This document shows positions 24,995-45,450 of a stretch of DNA of 64,000 bases, one piece after another. The DNA is from Natronosalvus caseinilyticus (lineage in GTDB: Archaea; Halobacteriota; Halobacteria; Halobacteriales; Natrialbaceae): positions 2,976,001-3,040,000 of the forward strand of contig NZ_CP071596.1 in the NCBI RefSeq assembly GCF_017357105.1, written 5' to 3'. The translations under genes were made by a program, and so were the position numbers. Below the pieces are notes generated by a model. It had not been told where the DNA came from. It saw nothing but the letters and a program-made list of their open reading frames with translations, and did not search any database. Position 1 is the first letter of the stretch, and the number at the start of each line of letters is the position of its first letter.

Positions 24995-25894
24995 ATGGCA
25001 CAGGCGTTCCTCGAGGTGACCGTGGACCCGCGGTTCACGGTCGCCCTCCTGTGCTGGATTCTCGGCGGTGCCGCCCTCGGCTCGGTCAGCGGCCTCATTC
25101 CCGGGCTGCACGCGAATAACTTCGCGCTCCTGCTCGCAGGCGTCGCCCCCTCCATTCCGGGGCCGACGTTGTTCGTCGGCTGTGCGATGCTCTCGGCGGG
25201 CGTCGTCCACACCTTCCTGAACGCCGTCCCGGCGATGGCGCTCGGAGTCCCCGACGCCGAGATGGCCGTCACGGCGCTGCCGGGTCACCAGCTGGTACTC
25301 GAGGGCCGGGGCTTCGAGGCGATTCGGCTCTCGGCGGTCGGGAGCCTGCTGGCCGTCCTCGTGGCGATTCCACTCGCGATTCCCGTGACCGTCGCCGTCA
25401 CGGCCGTCTACCCCCAGCTTCGAGCTAATCTCTCGGTCTTGCTCGCGGTCATCGTTCTCGCCCTCGTGCTCTCGGAATCCTCGTGGCGACGCCGGTTCGC
25501 TGGTCTCTTCTCGTTTTCGCTCGCGGCGACACTCGGCTGGGCGACGCTCGACCTGTCGCCGGACGCGCCGCTCGAGGCCGGCGGGATGCTCGCGCCGCTG
25601 TTCGCCGGCCTCTTCGGCGCGCCGGTGTTGATCGACGCCGTTCGGGGCGGCGGCGTCCCGCCACAGGGAGGAACGATGCTCCGGATGTCCCGACCGCTCC
25701 TTCTGGTGACGGCTATCGCCGGCGCACTGTCCGGTGCCATCGTCGGCTACCTCCCCGGTATCTCCGCGGCCATCGCGGCGGTCGCCGTGCTCGTCGTCCT
25801 CCCAGGCGGAGCCACCCCTCGAAGCTACATCGTGGCAACGAGCGGCGTCGACACGGCCAATACGCCCTTTGCTGTTTTTCCTACCATTGTTTGA
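24995..25894 (+). pseudogene. TctA-like tripartite transporter permease, 5' part, interrupted
   Basis: 299 codons. Strongly hydrophobic, with the family motifs GLIPGLHANNFALLL near 35 and GYLPGISAAIAAVAVL near 250. Related permeases run to roughly 400 residues. Here the frame ends shortly after TANTPFAVF, where homologues go on with another TM segment. The missing continuation FAVFAVFGIR is found in frame at 63969-64000, after an element of about 38 kb. The gene was therefore split by integration; the truncated product is probably inactive. Confidence 0.85.
25868..25878 (+). repeat. attL core of the integrated element
   Basis: TTTGCTGTTTT, beginning exactly at a codon boundary of tctA. The same 11 bases occur at 63969-63979, followed by the expected continuation of the tctA frame. 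Confidence 0.7.
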
Positions 25895-25948: not shown

Positions 25949-26113
25949 TTACTCGATCTGCCACAGCGCGTCCTCGAGCCCCAGCCCGTGCTCGCCAGCG
26001 ACGTCCTCGGCGAGTGCCAGCGCCCGATCGCGTCGGTCGGGGTCGTGAAGTTCACGTTCGCGAGCGTATTCGATGAGCGCCTCGACGATGAGCAGGTCGT
26101 CCTGTGGGTGCAT
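25949..26113 (-). CDS. Small acidic protein of unknown function
   Basis: 54 residues from ATG 26113 (MHPQDDLLIVEALIEY...), ending ALWQIE. Helical throughout, rich in Glu, Asp and Ala, with typical haloarchaeal codon use. First gene inside the left joint of the element. No family recognised. Confidence 0.6.
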   Translation of the reverse strand: MHPQDDLLIVEALIEYARERELHDPDRRDRALALAEDVAGEHGLGLEDALWQIE

Positions 26114-26152
26114 CGCCGGTGTTGGCCGCGTGGTCGGATAAAATGGGTCGGA

Positions 26153-26341
26153 TTAGATGTCGAACAGAAGAGCCGCGCCGACCATGATTCCTAAGACGAG
26201 AGCAATTTCCGCCGGAACCATTGATAGCGTATCACCCCAGGACGCGCCGAGATATTCACGATAACCACTTGCTTCGAGGATCCAAGCTGCGGCCCCGAAA
26301 GCACCTAATACCACGATTGTTTTCTGCCTAATCTCACCCAT
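26153..26341 (-). CDS. Small two-TM membrane protein
   Basis: 62 residues. Hydrophobic segments at about 8-23 and 42-60, separated by a polar loop (ASGYREYLGASWGD). Unknown function; its position between two leftward accessory genes supports it being real. Confidence 0.55.
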   Translation of the reverse strand: MGEIRQKTIVVLGAFGAAAWILEASGYREYLGASWGDTLSMVPAEIALVLGIMVGAALLFDI

Positions 26342-26379
26342 AACTGTTCGTGAACGTCAGAGGTATTGAAACTCTAGGG

Positions 26380-26991
26380 CTATCGAAGGTCGGTCGCCTC
26401 GAGCCCACAGTGCTCGAGTTCCTCCGGAATCGGTCCCTGGACCTTTGGCGTGATCGACGCCGTCGACGCCACCATGTCGGCGGTGTGGACGAGGTCCTCC
26501 AGGTCGTTCGACGGATAGGGGCCATCATACCACGCGCCCATGTGGGAGGCGATCGCGTCGGCCACCGCGTCATCGAGGTCGGATTCGAGAACGACCTCTG
26601 CCATCTGGAGGTCGTGATCCGACGTCGATTTCGGCGACGGGTTCAGCGGGTCGCCGTTTTTGCGTTGGTCGTGAAGGATCGCCGCCGCGTGAGCGAGATC
26701 GATATCGTACTCGGTGAGACGGCCCTGTCCGGTGTAGCTATCGGCGAGGCGGTCGATCACCGTCGAGAGCATCAACGTGTGCGCCCAGAGGCCGCGCTCG
26801 TTGCGACAGGCTGGGTGGTGGAACCCAGAGGTGCTGGCCGGAACCTCCCAGAAGTAATCAGGTGCGTCGGCGGTGAGCTCGCCGACGATGTGGCGAACGT
26901 CGCCATCGTCGATGAGATTGATTGTCGGCATTCGGCGGTACACTTCATCTGCATCGAGTGTCTGGTTTATAGATATGAAACGATACAACAC
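26380..26991 (-). CDS. HD-domain hydrolase
   Basis: 203 residues from GTG 26991; ATG 26931 is possible, but the residues before it (VYRRMPTINLIDD) fit the family. Metal ligands of the HD fold are visible: H71 in WAHTLML, H107-D108 in AAAILHD, and later His in DHDL and ASHMG. Proteins of this type in haloarchaeal viruses and plasmids are predicted phosphohydrolases, perhaps acting on nucleotides. The TATA candidate TTTAAATAATCC on the minus strand near 27025 fits the GTG start. Confidence 0.8.
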   Translation of the reverse strand: MLYRFISINQTLDADEVYRRMPTINLIDDGDVRHIVGELTADAPDYFWEVPASTSGFHHPACRNERGLWAHTLMLSTVIDRLADSYTGQGRLTEYDIDLAHAAAILHDQRKNGDPLNPSPKSTSDHDLQMAEVVLESDLDDAVADAIASHMGAWYDGPYPSNDLEDLVHTADMVASTASITPKVQGPIPEELEHCGLEATDLR

Positions 26992-27131
26992 GCATACCGT
27001 ATTATACTTACTGGTGTTGGATTATTTAAAACACTACCCGGGGAAAAGCGGGTAGATTTAAATATTTTACTCGGTTTTTCAGAATTCTCCCTCTCGATCT
27101 TCGTTCTACAGCCCGGACGTCTGCCGAAGTA

Positions 27132-27208
27132 TTAAGAGAGTTAGGAACGTTCGGAATAGTTGTGAGTCCTAAGACGTTATGAGTTCCAAACTGTCCGAAC
27201 CCTACCGA
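27132..27208 (+). promoter_or_regulatory. 9-bp-phased operator of the par operon
   Basis: TTAAGA, TTAGGA and TTCGGA begin at 27132, 27141 and 27150. TCCTAA, TCCAAA, TCCGAA and TACCGA, which follow the inverted form, begin at 27167, 27185, 27194 and 27203. All spacings are multiples of 9. The two half-arrays face each other across the parA start, the expected layout for an autoregulating partition operator. Confidence 0.65.
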
Positions 27209-27982
27209 TTGGTTGTATCGAACCAGAAAGGCGGCGTCGGGAAGAGCACGATCGCCTTGAACACGGCCGGCGCGCTCGCGAACCGTGGGAACGACGTGCT
27301 GTTGATCGACCTGGACCCGCAGGGCTACCTGACGAGCGGGACTGGCTTCGACGACCTCTACACCGACGAGGGAGTGAAGCAGTACAACGCGTTCAAAGAT
27401 CCGAGTGAGCACGACGTCGCCGATCTCGTCCACGCGCACGAGGAGTTCGACGTCCTCCCGGCGAACATTGATATGTTCAACCTCGAGCAAGAGCTCGTCT
27501 CGATGATGCAGGGGCGCAAACGTCTCCAGATGCTCCTCGAGGACGTCACCGACTACGACTTTATCGTGGTCGACTGTCCGCCCTCGCTCGGGCTGTTGAC
27601 CGACAACGCACTTCTCGCATGCGGGAACCTACTCATCCCGGCCGAAGCCGAGGACACGAGTATCCGAGCGCTGGATTTGCTGTTCAAGCAAGTCGATTCT
27701 CTCGAGGCGAACTTCTCGGAGGCCTCGATCAACGAGCAGGCGCTCGTCGTCTCGAACGTCGACTACCCGCTCGACGGCGAGCAACGCGGGATGCTCGAGT
27801 GGTTCGAGGACCAGTTCGGCGAGTACATCCCCGTCTTCGAGATCCGGAACCGGGCGGCCATCAAACGCGCCTGGAACAACGGCCGGTCGATCTTCGGTTT
27901 CGATGAGGAGTGTGACATGGAAGACGAGCTCGACCAGATCGCCGCGCACTTCGAAGCGGTTGCTCGAGGTGAGGACGAATGA
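27179..27982 (+). CDS. ParA/Soj-type partition ATPase
   Basis: 267 residues. Deviant Walker A KGGVGKST at 17-24, switch DLDPQGYLTSG, and Walker B FIVVDCPPSLG. There is no N-terminal DNA-binding extension, so it belongs to the small ParA class, where the partner represses the operon. The partner gene overlaps its stop by 4 nt. It should segregate the element when it exists as a circle. Confidence 0.95.
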   Translation: MSSKLSEPYRLVVSNQKGGVGKSTIALNTAGALANRGNDVLLIDLDPQGYLTSGTGFDDLYTDEGVKQYNAFKDPSEHDVADLVHAHEEFDVLPANIDMFNLEQELVSMMQGRKRLQMLLEDVTDYDFIVVDCPPSLGLLTDNALLACGNLLIPAEAEDTSIRALDLLFKQVDSLEANFSEASINEQALVVSNVDYPLDGEQRGMLEWFEDQFGEYIPVFEIRNRAAIKRAWNNGRSIFGFDEECDMEDELDQIAAHFEAVARGEDE

Positions 27983-28431
27983 GCGACCGAAACGAGCGAG
28001 GTCGGGATGTGACGGATCGGCTCGCCAAACGCTTCGAAAGCGGCGAACCATCCGATGAGGACGAACTGTCCGAATCTTCTGGTAGTTCCCAACGTTCCAA
28101 ACCTTCCAAAGACGTACAAGAGTCCGAAGACTCCAAAGAGGCACAAGGAGCCGATCCGTCCGAGAGTTCCAACAATGATGGGGGTTCCAAGGGTGGTGTG
28201 AACGTCAAAGAGGATTGGACAGGCCGTTACATGTATCTCCCCGACGAGATCGACTCGACGTTCGATAACGAGTACGACCGGCTGGTCTACGAGTGCGGGC
28301 GAGAGTTGGACTGGAAGCCGAAGAAGAACAAGCACTACTACCCGATAGCCGTCAAACACGGCGTCGACGCGATCGAGGACATGAGCGCTGGCGAGTTCGT
28401 CGAGGCTGTCGATGGAATGGAACTTCGGTAA
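27979..28431 (+). CDS. Probable ParB-like centromere-binding partner
   Basis: 150 residues: a charged, Ser-rich disordered first half (1-75), then a compact domain VKEDWTGRYMYLPDEIDSTFDNEYDRLVYECGRELDWKPKKNKHYYPIAVKHGVDAIEDM. This domain type follows parA in many haloarchaeal replicons. The position and 4-nt overlap with parA support the role; the DNA-binding fold is not recognised directly. Its gene carries a nucleotide-level repeat array (28051-28191). Confidence 0.8.
   Translation: MSDRNERGRDVTDRLAKRFESGEPSDEDELSESSGSSQRSKPSKDVQESEDSKEAQGADPSESSNNDGGSKGGVNVKEDWTGRYMYLPDEIDSTFDNEYDRLVYECGRELDWKPKKNKHYYPIAVKHGVDAIEDMSAGEFVEAVDGMELR
28051..28191 (+). repeat. Intragenic TCCRAA array in 9-bp phase, candidate parS
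   Basis: TCC(A/G)A-type hexamers begin at 28051, 28069, 28087, 28096, 28105, 28123, 28132, 28159, 28168 and 28186; every spacing is a multiple of 9. The same hexamer in the same phase occurs in the parA operator. Other Ser codons are used freely in between, so this looks like selection on the DNA, not only on the protein. Confidence 0.65.
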
Positions 28432-28566
28432 GACGGTGTAATTATTGAGTGAAGATGTATAGAACGTAATGATCTGACAAGGCCTTATTTCTGACTATAA
28501 GTCTGAATTTCTGATCTGGGCGTACGAGACATTAAATATCAGAGTCGCATCCTCCAACGTGCTACT

Positions 28567-28659
28567 TCCCGGGAGTGGCTACAGTTGAGTAGCGCACCCG
28601 CCAGCGAGGCGGTGTGGTGGTCCTGGGGAATAGCGTTCCCACAACCCACTGAAGAGTGG
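28567..28659. ncRNA. Candidate structured RNA: four successive hairpins
   Basis: In 93 bp: the palindrome TCCCGGGA (28567-28574); stem GCTAC/GTAGC with a 6-nt loop (28578-28593); CACCCGCC/GGCGGTGTG with a 5-nt loop and one mismatch (28595-28616); GGGGAA/TTCCCA with a 5-nt loop (28625-28641); and CCACT/AGTGG with loop GAAG (28646-28659). No reading frame fits. Either strand could be transcribed; it lies between the par operon and a convergent microprotein pair. No known RNA family recognised. Confidence 0.5.
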
Positions 28660-28684
28660 TACGGCCAGATACTCTCTTGAGAAG

Positions 28685-28870
28685 CTATTCCTCGTCGACG
28701 GCTCGATTGCGGGCCCGCGACGCCTGGCCCGCTTCAGTCGCCGGCCAGTCCTTGCGTCGGAATTCGCCCGGATGTTCGGTGTTGACGTGCTCAGCCAGCT
28801 CGGCAGCGCCGCCAGTGGAGTGCGAACAATCCGGCGACGGACACACGAACGATCGTGGCGTCACAATCAT
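28685..28870 (-). CDS. C2H2-type zinc-finger microprotein
   Basis: 61 residues. One finger CPSPDCSHSTGGAAELAEHVNTEH with the C-x4-C ... H-x4-H pattern, then a basic tail. Its ATG overlaps the stop of the zinc-ribbon gene upstream (ATGA), so the two are translated as a pair. Such microproteins are common in haloarchaeal viruses and plasmids; target unknown. Confidence 0.75.
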   Translation of the reverse strand: MIVTPRSFVCPSPDCSHSTGGAAELAEHVNTEHPGEFRRKDWPATEAGQASRARNRAVDEE

Positions 28871-29520: not shown

Positions 29521-30306
29521 CTATTGATCGAGGGCCAAATCGACAAAGTCCGACCATGACCCCTCAAACCGGTTGTAATAGGTTGTGGCGGAGTAATCGC
29601 CCTCCTCGTTCATCATCGTAGCCGTTGGCCGTTTTCCGTGTTTGCTATTCAACGACCGAATTTCCTCGAGTAGTTCTTTTTCCGGTATTGGATCGATTCC
29701 TGACGTTGGTACCTCGTCAGGATCCAGGCCAGCTTCCGAGATTGCCTCGGCCCATGAGCCGAACCGCTTTGAGATAGTTCGCGCTTTGACGTCCCCGTGT
29801 TCGTCCATTTCAGAGAAAGATGGTGGCCTCCCAAACTCGTTCGCTAACCGTTGGATCTCTTTGATAAGTTCGCTACTCATGATCCAGGTCGTCGAAGACG
29901 CCTTTCTGTGTTCAGGAACCTCAATCCCAGCTTCTTCTAAGGATTTGACCACACCACCAAACCGAGAATCGTATAGATGAAGGCTATATTTCGAGTGTTC
30001 GGTGATATCGTCCCGTCTTGGAATGCGATCAAGATCCTCGTTCAATTGCTTCAATTCGGAAAGGAGTTCTTCGTCAGAGACACCGGAGGATTTAGTCCGT
30101 GGCTCGAATCCTGCTTTCAGGATTGCGTTATTCCACGACCCGAACCTGTATCTGTACGTTCCCGAATTGAACGTTCCAAACTTGTCCATCTCTTTCTGTT
30201 TCGGAGGTCGACCAAACCGCTTTTTTAACCTCTTGATATCGTCTATAAGCGCTTCTTCGGAAATAGAGGGCCGTTTTGCTCTATCACTAGTTCTGTTGGG
30301 ATTCAT
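29521..30306 (-). CDS. Four-repeat protein (homing-endonuclease-associated repeat type)
   Basis: 261 residues made of four units of about 60 residues. Each has the pattern LI..I..L...FGRPP...EMD..G...... T...RFGSW..A...AG, at about 20, 78, 145 and 207 (FGRPPKQKEMD, DRIPRRDDI, FGRPPSFSEMD, GKRPTATMM). The unit resembles the helical DNA-binding repeat found with HNH homing endonucleases, but no nuclease motif is present. Probably a sequence-specific DNA-binding protein; base use is less G+C-rich than its neighbours. Confidence 0.8.
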   Translation of the reverse strand: MNPNRTSDRAKRPSISEEALIDDIKRLKKRFGRPPKQKEMDKFGTFNSGTYRYRFGSWNNAILKAGFEPRTKSSGVSDEELLSELKQLNEDLDRIPRRDDITEHSKYSLHLYDSRFGGVVKSLEEAGIEVPEHRKASSTTWIMSSELIKEIQRLANEFGRPPSFSEMDEHGDVKARTISKRFGSWAEAISEAGLDPDEVPTSGIDPIPEKELLEEIRSLNSKHGKRPTATMMNEEGDYSATTYYNRFEGSWSDFVDLALDQ

Positions 30307-32696: not shown

Positions 32697-32800
32697 GACC
32701 GAATCGCCTCCGGGAGACCCGTCCCACAGTAGGGACACCGCGTGTTCAGCGTGTGAACCGTGCTCGAGCACGATGGACACGAGAGCGTCCGGCTAGTCAT
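32693..32800 (-). CDS. 35-residue double-CxxC peptide
   Basis: MTSRTLSCPSCSSTVHTLNT then RCPYCGTGLP. Two CPxC knuckles make a minimal zinc ribbon. It overlaps the end of the methyltransferase gene by 8 nt and the next gene by 4 nt. Confidence 0.65.
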   Translation of the reverse strand: MTSRTLSCPSCSSTVHTLNTRCPYCGTGLPEAIRS

Positions 32801-34346
32801 CGCTCGCCACCTCCTCGTACGGAGGGATCTCAACGTCGGCGTCAGTGGGAAACCCGGCGCCGTAGGTAGACAGCGACGGTGCCTCGGTCGCGAGGATGTG
32901 CTCACAAAGAGCTCGCGCCATCCCGACCGGGACGGCGTTGCCGATCTGGGCCCGCCGGTCTTTCTTCGTGTCGCCCGTGATCTCGTAGTCCGCCGGGAAG
33001 CCCTGTGCTCGTTTGGTCTCTGGCGGGTCGAGCATCCGGTACCGGAGGTCGATTCCGAACGGGTAGACCGCCGGATCGGCCAGTGCGTACCGAGCACGTT
33101 TGGTGAGCGTCGGGAGTGGATCGTCGATCGACTTCACCGAGTGCTCTGGCGTCCCGTTGTACTGGACGAGAAACGGCGAGAACAGCCGACCGTCGTGATT
33201 GCGGGCCGTGACCGTATGGAACGGTCGGTCGTCGGGGTCGTAGGCCGGGTTCGAGTGCTTGCCACGAGCCGAACCGTTCCGGGGGAGGACGAACGCCTGT
33301 GCCTCGATGTAGTGGATGGCGCCGCGTGTCGTGATGGTCGATACCGGTTTCGTCTCGGCGTCTCTCGGGTAGGCGCCGCCGTGCTGGCCCATCACCATCG
33401 GCGTCGACGTCTCGTCGTCGACGGCGACCTCGCCACGGACCAGGAACGGTTCGGTCCGCTTCTCGATCGCGTCCTCGACGTCTTCGACCGGAACGACGTC
33501 ATCCTGGAGCGCGTAAATGTCTGCTTCGTCCATTCGCTCAAGAGCCTCCGCGTAGGGCGCGAGTCGGTCGTTGCAGTGGTCGCGGATGCCCTTCGCGATG
33601 CGAACCATCGTCTTGCTCGCGAGTGCCTTCGAGCGCGTGAACATCGACTCGCCCCGGTCGCTCCAGTCGATTATCTCGCTGGCTGGCACCCAGTCCTCGA
33701 GGTCGTCGGTCGGGTCGTTCGAATGCGTGGGTTCCGGTGGCGTCGGGCGGTTGGTTCGCGAGGCGATCACGAACAGGCGCTGTCGGGTCGTCGGGTCGCC
33801 GTAGTCGGCCGCCCGGAGCTTGACGCCGTAGCGGTCCTTGTCGTCACGAACGACGGTGTACCCGAGCGCATGCAGCATTCCGATCCAGCGCTCGTAGATC
33901 GAGCCGTCGTTCGAGGGCCTGCCGTTCTCTTCAACTGGCCCCCACGATCGGAGCTCACCGACGTTCTCGATCAACAGGTGTTTGGGTTGCAGGAGTTCGA
34001 CCCACCGGAGGACGTGCCACGGCGAGGCGCGTTCCTGGTCTTTCACGGGCTTGCCGCCGCGTGCGTTCGAGAAATGCGTACACGAGGGGCCAGCCGTCAG
34101 CAGGTCGACCGTTCCGGGCTTGGCAACGTCCGGCGGGAAGATTGCCTCGACCTTTGTATGGTAGTGGTCGGCCCACGGGTGGTTTTTCTCGTGGGTCGCG
34201 ATCGCGTACTCGTTGTGGTTGATCGCCGCGAGGTGGAAGTCCTCGCCGGGCGTGTAGCCGAGATTCTTCGCGCCGTCGATGGCGCCTGTCGAGATCCCGC
34301 CCGCGCCTGCGAAGAGGTCGACGACGGTGAGGGAATCTTCAGACAT
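32793..34346 (-). CDS. DNA (cytosine-5-)methyltransferase
   Basis: 517 residues from ATG 34346. C5-MTase motifs in order: I DLFAGAGG (10-17), IV with catalytic Cys in GPSC (C89; the usual GPPC is changed to GPSC), VI IENVG (126-130), VIII TRQRLF (187-192), and X QIGNAVPVGMARAL near the end. The region between VIII and IX, which reads the target, is long (about 200-430). No endonuclease gene is adjacent, so it is probably a solitary methylase protecting the element. Start coupled to the preceding gene by overlap. Confidence 0.93.
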   Translation of the reverse strand: MSEDSLTVVDLFAGAGGISTGAIDGAKNLGYTPGEDFHLAAINHNEYAIATHEKNHPWADHYHTKVEAIFPPDVAKPGTVDLLTAGPSCTHFSNARGGKPVKDQERASPWHVLRWVELLQPKHLLIENVGELRSWGPVEENGRPSNDGSIYERWIGMLHALGYTVVRDDKDRYGVKLRAADYGDPTTRQRLFVIASRTNRPTPPEPTHSNDPTDDLEDWVPASEIIDWSDRGESMFTRSKALASKTMVRIAKGIRDHCNDRLAPYAEALERMDEADIYALQDDVVPVEDVEDAIEKRTEPFLVRGEVAVDDETSTPMVMGQHGGAYPRDAETKPVSTITTRGAIHYIEAQAFVLPRNGSARGKHSNPAYDPDDRPFHTVTARNHDGRLFSPFLVQYNGTPEHSVKSIDDPLPTLTKRARYALADPAVYPFGIDLRYRMLDPPETKRAQGFPADYEITGDTKKDRRAQIGNAVPVGMARALCEHILATEAPSLSTYGAGFPTDADVEIPPYEEVASDD

Positions 34347-34782
34347 CGTTGCCCTCCTGGAGGTCATCGTATCCGTAGCGTTCGACCAGCGCCTCGAGTT
34401 CGTCGACGACCGTCTCGGTCTCCCGTTTCCCCAGTCCCGACAGATCGTAGAGCAGTCGAACCAGCAGATCGCGTTTCGGTTTGCGCTTCCCGCTCTCGAG
34501 GTCGGCGATCGTCTCGTCGATGGTTTCGAGCGCCGTCTCGATGGTGGACTTGTTCAGACTCGCGTTCCGGCCGTAGAGCAACGCGACCACGTCCTCGTCG
34601 GTGAGGCCACTTCGGCGCAGCGCTCGCAGATCCGTCGCGAGGGTTTCGATCGACTCGGCGGCCTGGGCCACTTCGACGAGATCGGTGTGGAACTGTTCAG
34701 TGTCGATCGTGACGTCCTCGAGTTCGAGTTCCTCGTCGGCGTTCGTGAGGAGTTCCTCGAGCGGGTGTTCGTCGTCGGTCAT
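34339..34782 (-). CDS. Helical operon protein of unknown function
   Basis: 147 residues, predicted all-helical, very acidic N-terminus (MTDDEHPLEELL). It ends by overlapping the methyltransferase start by 8 nt and begins in a 4-nt overlap with the gene before. No family recognised. Confidence 0.7.
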   Translation of the reverse strand: MTDDEHPLEELLTNADEELELEDVTIDTEQFHTDLVEVAQAAESIETLATDLRALRRSGLTDEDVVALLYGRNASLNKSTIETALETIDETIADLESGKRKPKRDLLVRLLYDLSGLGKRETETVVDELEALVERYGYDDLQEGNDV

Positions 34783-44745: not shown

Positions 44746-45450
44746 ATGACACAGCATCAGTCTGAGTCATCATCGTGGGCGAAGCGACATCGACGAGCAT
44801 TGACGACACGACATTCTCACGAAGATGTTCTCACCGACCGAGAGTTCGAGTTGTTGCTCGAAGCCTGTTCGGAGTTACCTAGCCCCCATGATTTCCAAGC
44901 GCGGTTCATCTGTTTGGTCGCAGGTCGGCTCGGACTCCGTGGGGGCGAGATTTCACATCTCAATACCGACTGGTTTGACTGGGATCGGAAGCTCCTCCAA
45001 ATTCCACAGCACGAGCCGTGTGCTTGTGGGTACTGTCGTCGCCAAGCAGCTCAGGAAGCGACCCACTGTGACGACCTCACCGAGGACAAGGCAGTAGAGG
45101 CCCGGTGGCACCCAAAGACGGTCTCGTCCGCTCGGGCGATCCCGTTCGACCCGTCGTTGCGTCTCGAATTGTGTCTCGAACGCTTCGTCAATCGTTACGA
45201 TTCATTTCCACATTCGCGCTCGACGATCAATAGGCGGGTGAACGAAGCTGCGGAGACTGCCGATCTTCGGGGGCGCGTCTACCCACACTGTTTCCGAGCA
45301 ACCGCTGCGAGCTATCACGCCTATCAAGGAGTTGCGCCAGTTCCGCTTCAGGCCTTGATGGGGTGGAGTGATTTCGCTACCGCCCAGAAATACATCCGAA
45401 TTTCCGGAACAGCGACCGCAGATGCACTCCGGCAAGCGCATCACCGATAA
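44746..45450 (+). CDS. Tyrosine recombinase (integrase), short form
   Basis: 234 residues. Catalytic set visible: R65 in LGLRGGEISHL, K124 in WHPKTV, H181 and R184 in YPHCFRATA, W207 in MGWSDF and Tyr216 in AQKYIRIS. The N-terminal SAM-like core-binding domain is nearly absent. A Cys cluster PCACGYC with a later Cys (residues 91-108) makes a probable zinc insert between the first Arg and the Lys. It may be the integrase of the element, but it lies 19 kb from either end. Confidence 0.85.
   Translation: MTQHQSESSSWAKRHRRALTTRHSHEDVLTDREFELLLEACSELPSPHDFQARFICLVAGRLGLRGGEISHLNTDWFDWDRKLLQIPQHEPCACGYCRRQAAQEATHCDDLTEDKAVEARWHPKTVSSARAIPFDPSLRLELCLERFVNRYDSFPHSRSTINRRVNEAAETADLRGRVYPHCFRATAASYHAYQGVAPVPLQALMGWSDFATAQKYIRISGTATADALRQAHHR

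Follow-up and report, generated by a model that had tools for sequence, protein, structure and literature searches.

A phased 9-bp repeat array shared by the operator and the partner gene of a haloarchaeal partition module: a putative centromere within coding sequence

A review of archaeal genome segregation lists the centromeres of archaeal chromosomes and plasmids as an open question (PMC5120986). The locus described here raises this question in a particular form, namely whether the DNA that encodes a partition protein can at the same time be the segregation site that the protein binds. The window, by which we mean the whole 64,000-nucleotide stretch that was analysed, comprises positions 2,976,001-3,040,000 of the 4.0-Mb chromosome of the haloarchaeon Natronosalvus caseinilyticus, which is accompanied by a 230-kb contig, C2. 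Within it lies a par module, probably on an integrated plasmid relative (Table 1). A first-pass annotation had proposed that hexamers of the TCCRAA type, found around the parA start and inside the partner gene, form the element's parS, which doubles as a coding region. This is also the reading best supported by our sequence comparisons, in which the word is retained where the peptide changes, and we consider it likely that, in this two-gene module, the DNA encoding the disordered segment of the binding protein also holds an iteron-type centromere/operator array for that protein.

Table 1. Features of the par locus and of the surrounding element, in window coordinates
Feature	Position	Strand	Remarks
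Inverted operator words TTCCTAAC and TTCCGAAC	27140..27156	-	TTCCTAAC at 27140-27147, TTCCGAAC at 27149-27156; noncoding; 9 bp apart
Direct operator words GTCCTAAG, TTCCAAAC and GTCCGAAC	27166..27200	+	at 27166, 27184 and 27193, respectively; cross the parA start codon at 27179
parA	27179..27982	+	267-aa ParA/Soj-type Walker ATPase; P-loop NQKGGVGKS near the N-terminus
Partner gene (parB-like)	27979..28431	+	150 aa; PHROG 29165
Coding array	28051..28191	+	ten TCC words in one 9-bp register; encodes disordered linker; proposed extension of the centromere/operator
C-terminal domain of partner	28201..28428	+	76 aa; conserved part among homologues; proposed DNA-binding domain; AlphaFold mean pLDDT 81
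Match to C2 48-137	26059-26144		
Match to C2 1692-1828	28728-28864		
Match to C2 2054-2426	30372-30747		
Match to C2 2624-4000	40192-41567		inverted orientation
Tyrosine integrase gene	44746-45450		

The parA product matches Pfam AAA_31 (6.9e-41), PHROG 164, a ParA-like partition protein (1.5e-53), and Soj/ParA relatives in the PDB (best 2e-26). It has the deviant Walker A motif and lacks an N-terminal HTH, a small partner gene follows directly with its start overlapping the parA end by ATGA (27979-27982), and a repeat array lies at the parA promoter (27140-27200), all as expected of a type Ib system. The partner itself has no family match in Pfam or NCBIfam at E <= 1, and thus neither the ParB CTPase domain nor the HTH of type Ia/chromosomal ParB was detected at that threshold. 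AlphaFold predicts a helix at residues 7-20, with a recurrent RL..R pattern, a low-confidence linker at ~22-82, which coincides with the array-coding DNA, and helices at 89-109 and 116-127. In type Ib partners, the flexible N-terminal part carries an arginine that stimulates ParA. The model of the C-terminal domain consists of an extended YLP segment, a long helix and a second helix, an arrangement that would suit a ribbon-helix-helix protein, as in type Ib partners (PMC5016525). Foldseek, Pfam and PDB profile and sequence searches gave no significant match of the partner to a known DNA-binding fold.

The operator words are of the type TTCCRAAC, spaced by 9 or 18 within each orientation. Three of them contain an exact TCCRAA, one inverted (27150-27155) and two direct (27185 and 27194). 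Similar words are found at the parA starts of two related loci, L003 and L054. The first-pass annotation had described words that are inverted before and direct across the parA start, and which also occur beyond coding sequence; both statements hold, the inverted words being noncoding. It had also stated that all spacings are multiples of 9, which is exact inside each group of words, but the groups are mutually out of register. Simple counting of TCCRAA was rejected as a signal, since there is no enrichment over the whole window (66 observed vs 83 expected).

Inside the partner gene, ten serine codons are TCC (28051, 28069, 28087, 28096, 28105, 28123, 28132, 28159, 28168 and 28186). They are followed by RAA in five cases, by RA and another base in four, and by CAA in one. 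Exact TCCRAA therefore occurs only five times in this gene (28069, 28096, 28105, 28123 and 28132), and the ten further hexamers of the first-pass annotation are properly ten TCC codons. Its observation that other serine synonyms are used between the words was borne out by a test of codon phase, which it had suggested: all ten TCC codons are in one 9-bp phase, compared with 2 of the 8 other serine codons (hypergeometric P = 0.0015, or ~0.0045 once the choice of phase is allowed for). TCC makes up 10/18 of the serine codons here, compared with 14.7% in 13 other genes of the window. The 5' half of the partner gene has a DNA identity of 0.45 at lag 9, against 0.36 under synonymous resampling (P <= 0.0005), where the protein was held fixed and codons were redrawn from parA and the C-terminal domain. 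The coding array is thus under selection at the level of DNA. A period of 9 bp is also three codons, so that a repeat and a reading frame are easily kept together, and this counts against our reading.

In the window alone, the sharing of 7-mers between the partner gene and the noncoding operator was not above the synonymous null (P ~0.41), because the small operator shares few 7-mers. The significance obtained from the window hence rests on the phase and on a genome-wide search for pairs of the word. With up to one mismatch, TTCCRAACNTTCCRAAC, which represents paired TTCCRAAC words, has exactly four sites in the 4.24-Mb genome, all at this locus: 3003140 (-) and 3003184 (+) at the operator and parA start, and 3004086 and 3004095 (+) in the partner gene, the latter two being 28086 and 28095 of the window. 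At that stringency, the operator word is therefore present in the partner gene and nowhere else.

The noncoding array in the window has ~5 units, against ten in the coding array. At this ratio of about 2:1, the coding part would make up most of the centromere. An alternative is that binding of the partner to the coding array serves autoregulation only, the array being an internal operator or a transcription roadblock that limits the amount of partner, with the upstream array alone as centromere. This would agree with the overlap of operator sites with the parA start, which is seen in many loci; the sites upstream of the archaeal segAB genes likewise could not be assigned to either centromere or regulation (PMC5120986). 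We regard it as unlikely, given that the coding units would be the larger share of the centromere, and given a subfamily with the word AACGAR (most of L010 to L023, plus L048, L051 and L052), which has more than 300 bp of noncoding array before parA and nonetheless repeats the word within the partner gene, where it is read as SET/NET. We take the coding DNA itself to be the probable segregation site.

Comparison with related par loci, another suggestion of the first-pass annotation, showed that the operator word of a subfamily recurs in a 9-bp register within its partner genes. For example, in Natrinema pallidum (L003, on the same contig as L005) the noncoding array GTTCCAAACATTCACAAC contains a TTCCRAAC-like word, and the partner of 199 aa has a longer coding array; in that genome the only exact pair lies at the parA start of the par locus, and one pair with a single mismatch lies on another contig. 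In genome G040 (L006), operator and gene share a 19-bp exact match, GTTCCAAACGTTCCAAACC, which lies at -86 in the noncoding operator. Exact matches between operator and gene reach 15 bp in L011, L021 and L045, 14 bp in L047, and 13 bp in L036 and L037. The words differ between plasmids and hosts, being TGTTAAACAAGAT in pNG500, ACTTCACAGAACG in pNG200, ACCGGACAAACTGG in Halococcus dombrowskii and CCAGTAAAAC in L032, and in each case the gene shares its word with the operator or the start of parA.

The encoded linker peptides vary as well (KPS/EPS, SET/NET, DKP, TGQ and TSQN), while subfamilies tend to keep their own operator word. The case named in the first-pass annotation as one that would speak against its proposal, a serine-rich segment kept without the words, is mostly the opposite of what is seen. 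The core GGACAAAC is read as GAC AAA (DK, in DKP) in L002 and as GGA CAA AC (GQT) in L047. In L002, the 3' end of the gene also carries GTCCAAACC in reverse, where it appears as GGTTTGGAC repeats encoding GLD. Selection on the peptide would hardly account for words that occur in two reading frames and on either strand. Since the words differ by subfamily, yet recur in a 9-bp register as different peptides, it appears to be the DNA word rather than the peptide that is conserved.

Across loci, the coding linkers (averaged over subfamilies) have an autocorrelation of 0.40-0.43 at lags 9, 18, 27 and 36 over a background of ~0.26, and noncoding upstream DNA, averaged in the same way, has ~0.30-0.31 at lags 9, 18 and 27 compared with ~0.25. 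The operator and coding words also covary. When loci were clustered at 50% identity of the C-terminal domain only, and hence blind to the words, the sharing of 8-mers between a cluster's coding segments and its own noncoding operators was 2.2 times the permuted value (P = 1e-4). The own operator was the best one in 5/8 clusters, and in 6/8 with the first 30 bp of parA included. Coarser clusters weakened this signal (P = 0.002 at 45% and 0.05 at 40%). No preference for the own operator was seen in the phage phiH1 locus (L034) or in L033. A further 26 loci, mostly of the AACGAR subfamily and including at least four already seen before, were tested for operator 7-mers in the gene, and in 25 of these the 7-mers exceeded the synonymous null. 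The phase test for TCC fails in L006 and L054, because the TCC codons there use two registers.

The near-exclusive location of the words was also apparent in the AACGAR subfamily. The sequence AACGARNNNAACGARNNNAACGAR, which is made up of three AACGAR units in phase, has 16 exact matches in four whole genomes, and every one of them falls within the par locus, with matches in front of parA as well as in the partner gene. The density of AACGA per kb is 32-48 upstream and 23-45 in the linker DNA, compared with 1-5 in parA, 0-9 in the C-domain and 0-10 downstream.

These data bear on two further explanations. Operator repeats could have entered the gene by slippage or duplication and persisted neutrally because the linker tolerates any sequence. 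Disordered linkers do tolerate repeats, the partners of close relatives differ in length (150 to over 200 aa), and some units are near-identical tandem copies. We nevertheless think this very unlikely, as the core and the register persist while variable positions differ between units, core words exceed synonymous nulls in many loci, and several subfamilies show the pattern with words of their own, in L002 also in reverse at the 3' end. The other explanation is selection on the protein for a Ser-Lys/Glu periodicity in the linker, which might serve phosphorylation or contact with ParA, the DNA periodicity being secondary. In most subfamilies the linker is indeed acidic, Ser/Thr-rich and of low complexity, but the peptides differ between subfamilies, the synonymous nulls are exceeded, and the same word occurs in noncoding DNA in addition to two reading frames and the opposite strand, so that this explanation has hardly any probability left. 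As to 3' ends in general, a reverse array there was rejected as a feature of the family, only L002 standing out. Four GGTTTGGAC units, encoding GLD repeats, do lie at the 3' end of the C2 partner gene (L004, 1334-1392), opposite to its 5' array, and L055 and L056 have similar TTGGAA-type units at this end.

If the coding array is part of the centromere, as we prefer to read it, the module would be that of a plasmid-like element, composed of a ParA ATPase and a small centromere-binding partner, whose target would be a short word recurring at 9-bp intervals. This array begins in the parA promoter, crosses the parA start codon and is taken up again in the partner-gene DNA that encodes the disordered linker. 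By analogy with type Ib systems, partner dimers would bind the 9-bp units cooperatively, one per unit, by means of the C-terminal domain, and a partition complex would form on all units, upstream and coding. The bound array would repress the operon from its upstream units and act as centromere, in which the coding units would take part beyond any role as operator. The N-terminal basic helix of the bound partner would then stimulate the ATPase of nucleoid-bound ParA.

A parS inside the gene of a partition protein is known from Bacillus subtilis, where it is located in spo0J, the parB gene. That site is a single 16-bp palindrome among dispersed sites, and Spo0J is an HTH ParB with a CTP clamp, unrelated to the partner described here. 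In the SCP2 ParATS system of Streptomyces coelicolor, the partner gene, parT, likewise contains parS in its coding sequence, but as one 18-bp inverted repeat (PMC12260392), whereas here a tandem array fills about one third of the gene. Unlike the SCP2 parS, the array is common to operator and gene and covaries between subfamilies.

The closest likeness in architecture is to the type Ib systems of pSM19035 and pCXC100, with a small ParA, a small partner that has a flexible N-terminal part (here predicted) and a separate C-terminal domain, and contiguous short repeats that are, here putatively, operator and centromere in one. The small dimeric partners of type Ib bind such contiguous repeats; the unit of pSM19035 delta-omega is 7 bp, WATCACW, compared with 9 bp here, and full activation of its ParA needs four contiguous units (PMC9499535). 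The pCXC100 ParB uses direct repeats only (PMC5016525). Type Ib arrays lie upstream or in promoter regions, whereas the present array also recurs within the partner gene, and no sequence relationship to type Ib partners was found. The SegAB system of Sulfolobales resembles this module in having an archaeal ParA homologue, an overlapping downstream gene for a small DNA-binding partner, and sites just upstream of the ATPase start; SegB binds palindromic motifs, and the available text of its reports describes no phased array in segB (PMC12284271, PMC5120986). We found no description in the open-licence literature of a haloarchaeal par array, or of a centromere array within a partner gene. Single embedded parS sites and type Ib phased arrays are both known, and within the same literature we found no report of a phased array in a coding linker that is shared with the operator and covaries across a family.

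Homologues of the partner are widespread. A protein search found them in 45/125 genomes of the family, and a profile search in 141/293 genomes sampled from the order, which represent 55/87 genera. At least 76 plasmid records carry one, including pNRC100, pNG200, pNG500, pHTIA and pHLAC01. No match was obtained when viral contigs were scanned with the single partner protein, but a query built from an alignment gave four. The homologue of phage phiH1 is PhiH1_260, adjoining the ParA gene PhiH1_265 in the L-region (L034); the available text of its report annotates the pair only as a ParA-domain protein and an uncharacterized protein, and does not describe the repeats (PMC6210493). In the annotated regions that we examined, nearly all homologues follow a ParA-annotated gene and are themselves called hypothetical. 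Six loci (L026-L031) have homologues of the C-terminal domain with no ParA P-loop gene found directly upstream and no obvious linker arrays, which counts against our reading; these proteins have perhaps been recruited to another role.

The genomic setting of the window locus offers a view of how such modules may move. Homology to the chromosomes of genus relatives ends at ~25872, within a membrane protein gene (24995-25894), and 25946-26100 matches plasmid contigs. On the evidence of this left edge, the C2-matching stretches and the integrase gene (Table 1), the window from 25872 to at least 41567 probably holds a relative of C2, the 230-kb plasmid of the same cell, that has become integrated. 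A right edge was not found, nor were att repeats of 13 bp or more near the left edge. Between matching flanks (26059-28864 of the window, 48-1828 of L004) the par cassettes differ, with TTCCRAAC in the element and GTCCAAACC on C2, and the two carry different partner subfamilies, as if the cassette had been swapped as a unit. Embedding would join the specificity protein and its site in one exchangeable cassette, and the different cassettes on the integrated element and on C2 suggest exchange of this kind. Partition incompatibility would favour a different word on a co-resident relative, and with the site embedded in the gene, an exchange would move site and protein together.

For haloarchaeal plasmids and viruses at large, we lean, with some reserve, towards the view that the gene of the centromere-binding protein itself contains the centromere, such that the linker is in effect a translated centromere, that word, operator and protein change together, and that each cassette carries its own incompatibility type. 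The comparison provides explicit candidate centromere sites for many of the 76 plasmid records, including pNG500 and pNG200, with a word that differs per subfamily. Centromere identity, plasmid incompatibility and protein-DNA specificity thereby become directly testable. The locus would further offer a clear example from nature of coding DNA in which the peptide seems to be dictated by an array for protein binding.

Two other genes were observed in the putative integrated element. One (29521-30306) encodes a protein of four homing-endonuclease-associated HNH repeats (Pfam PF18780, 1.8e-75), and the other (32793-34367) is a C-5 cytosine DNA methylase gene.
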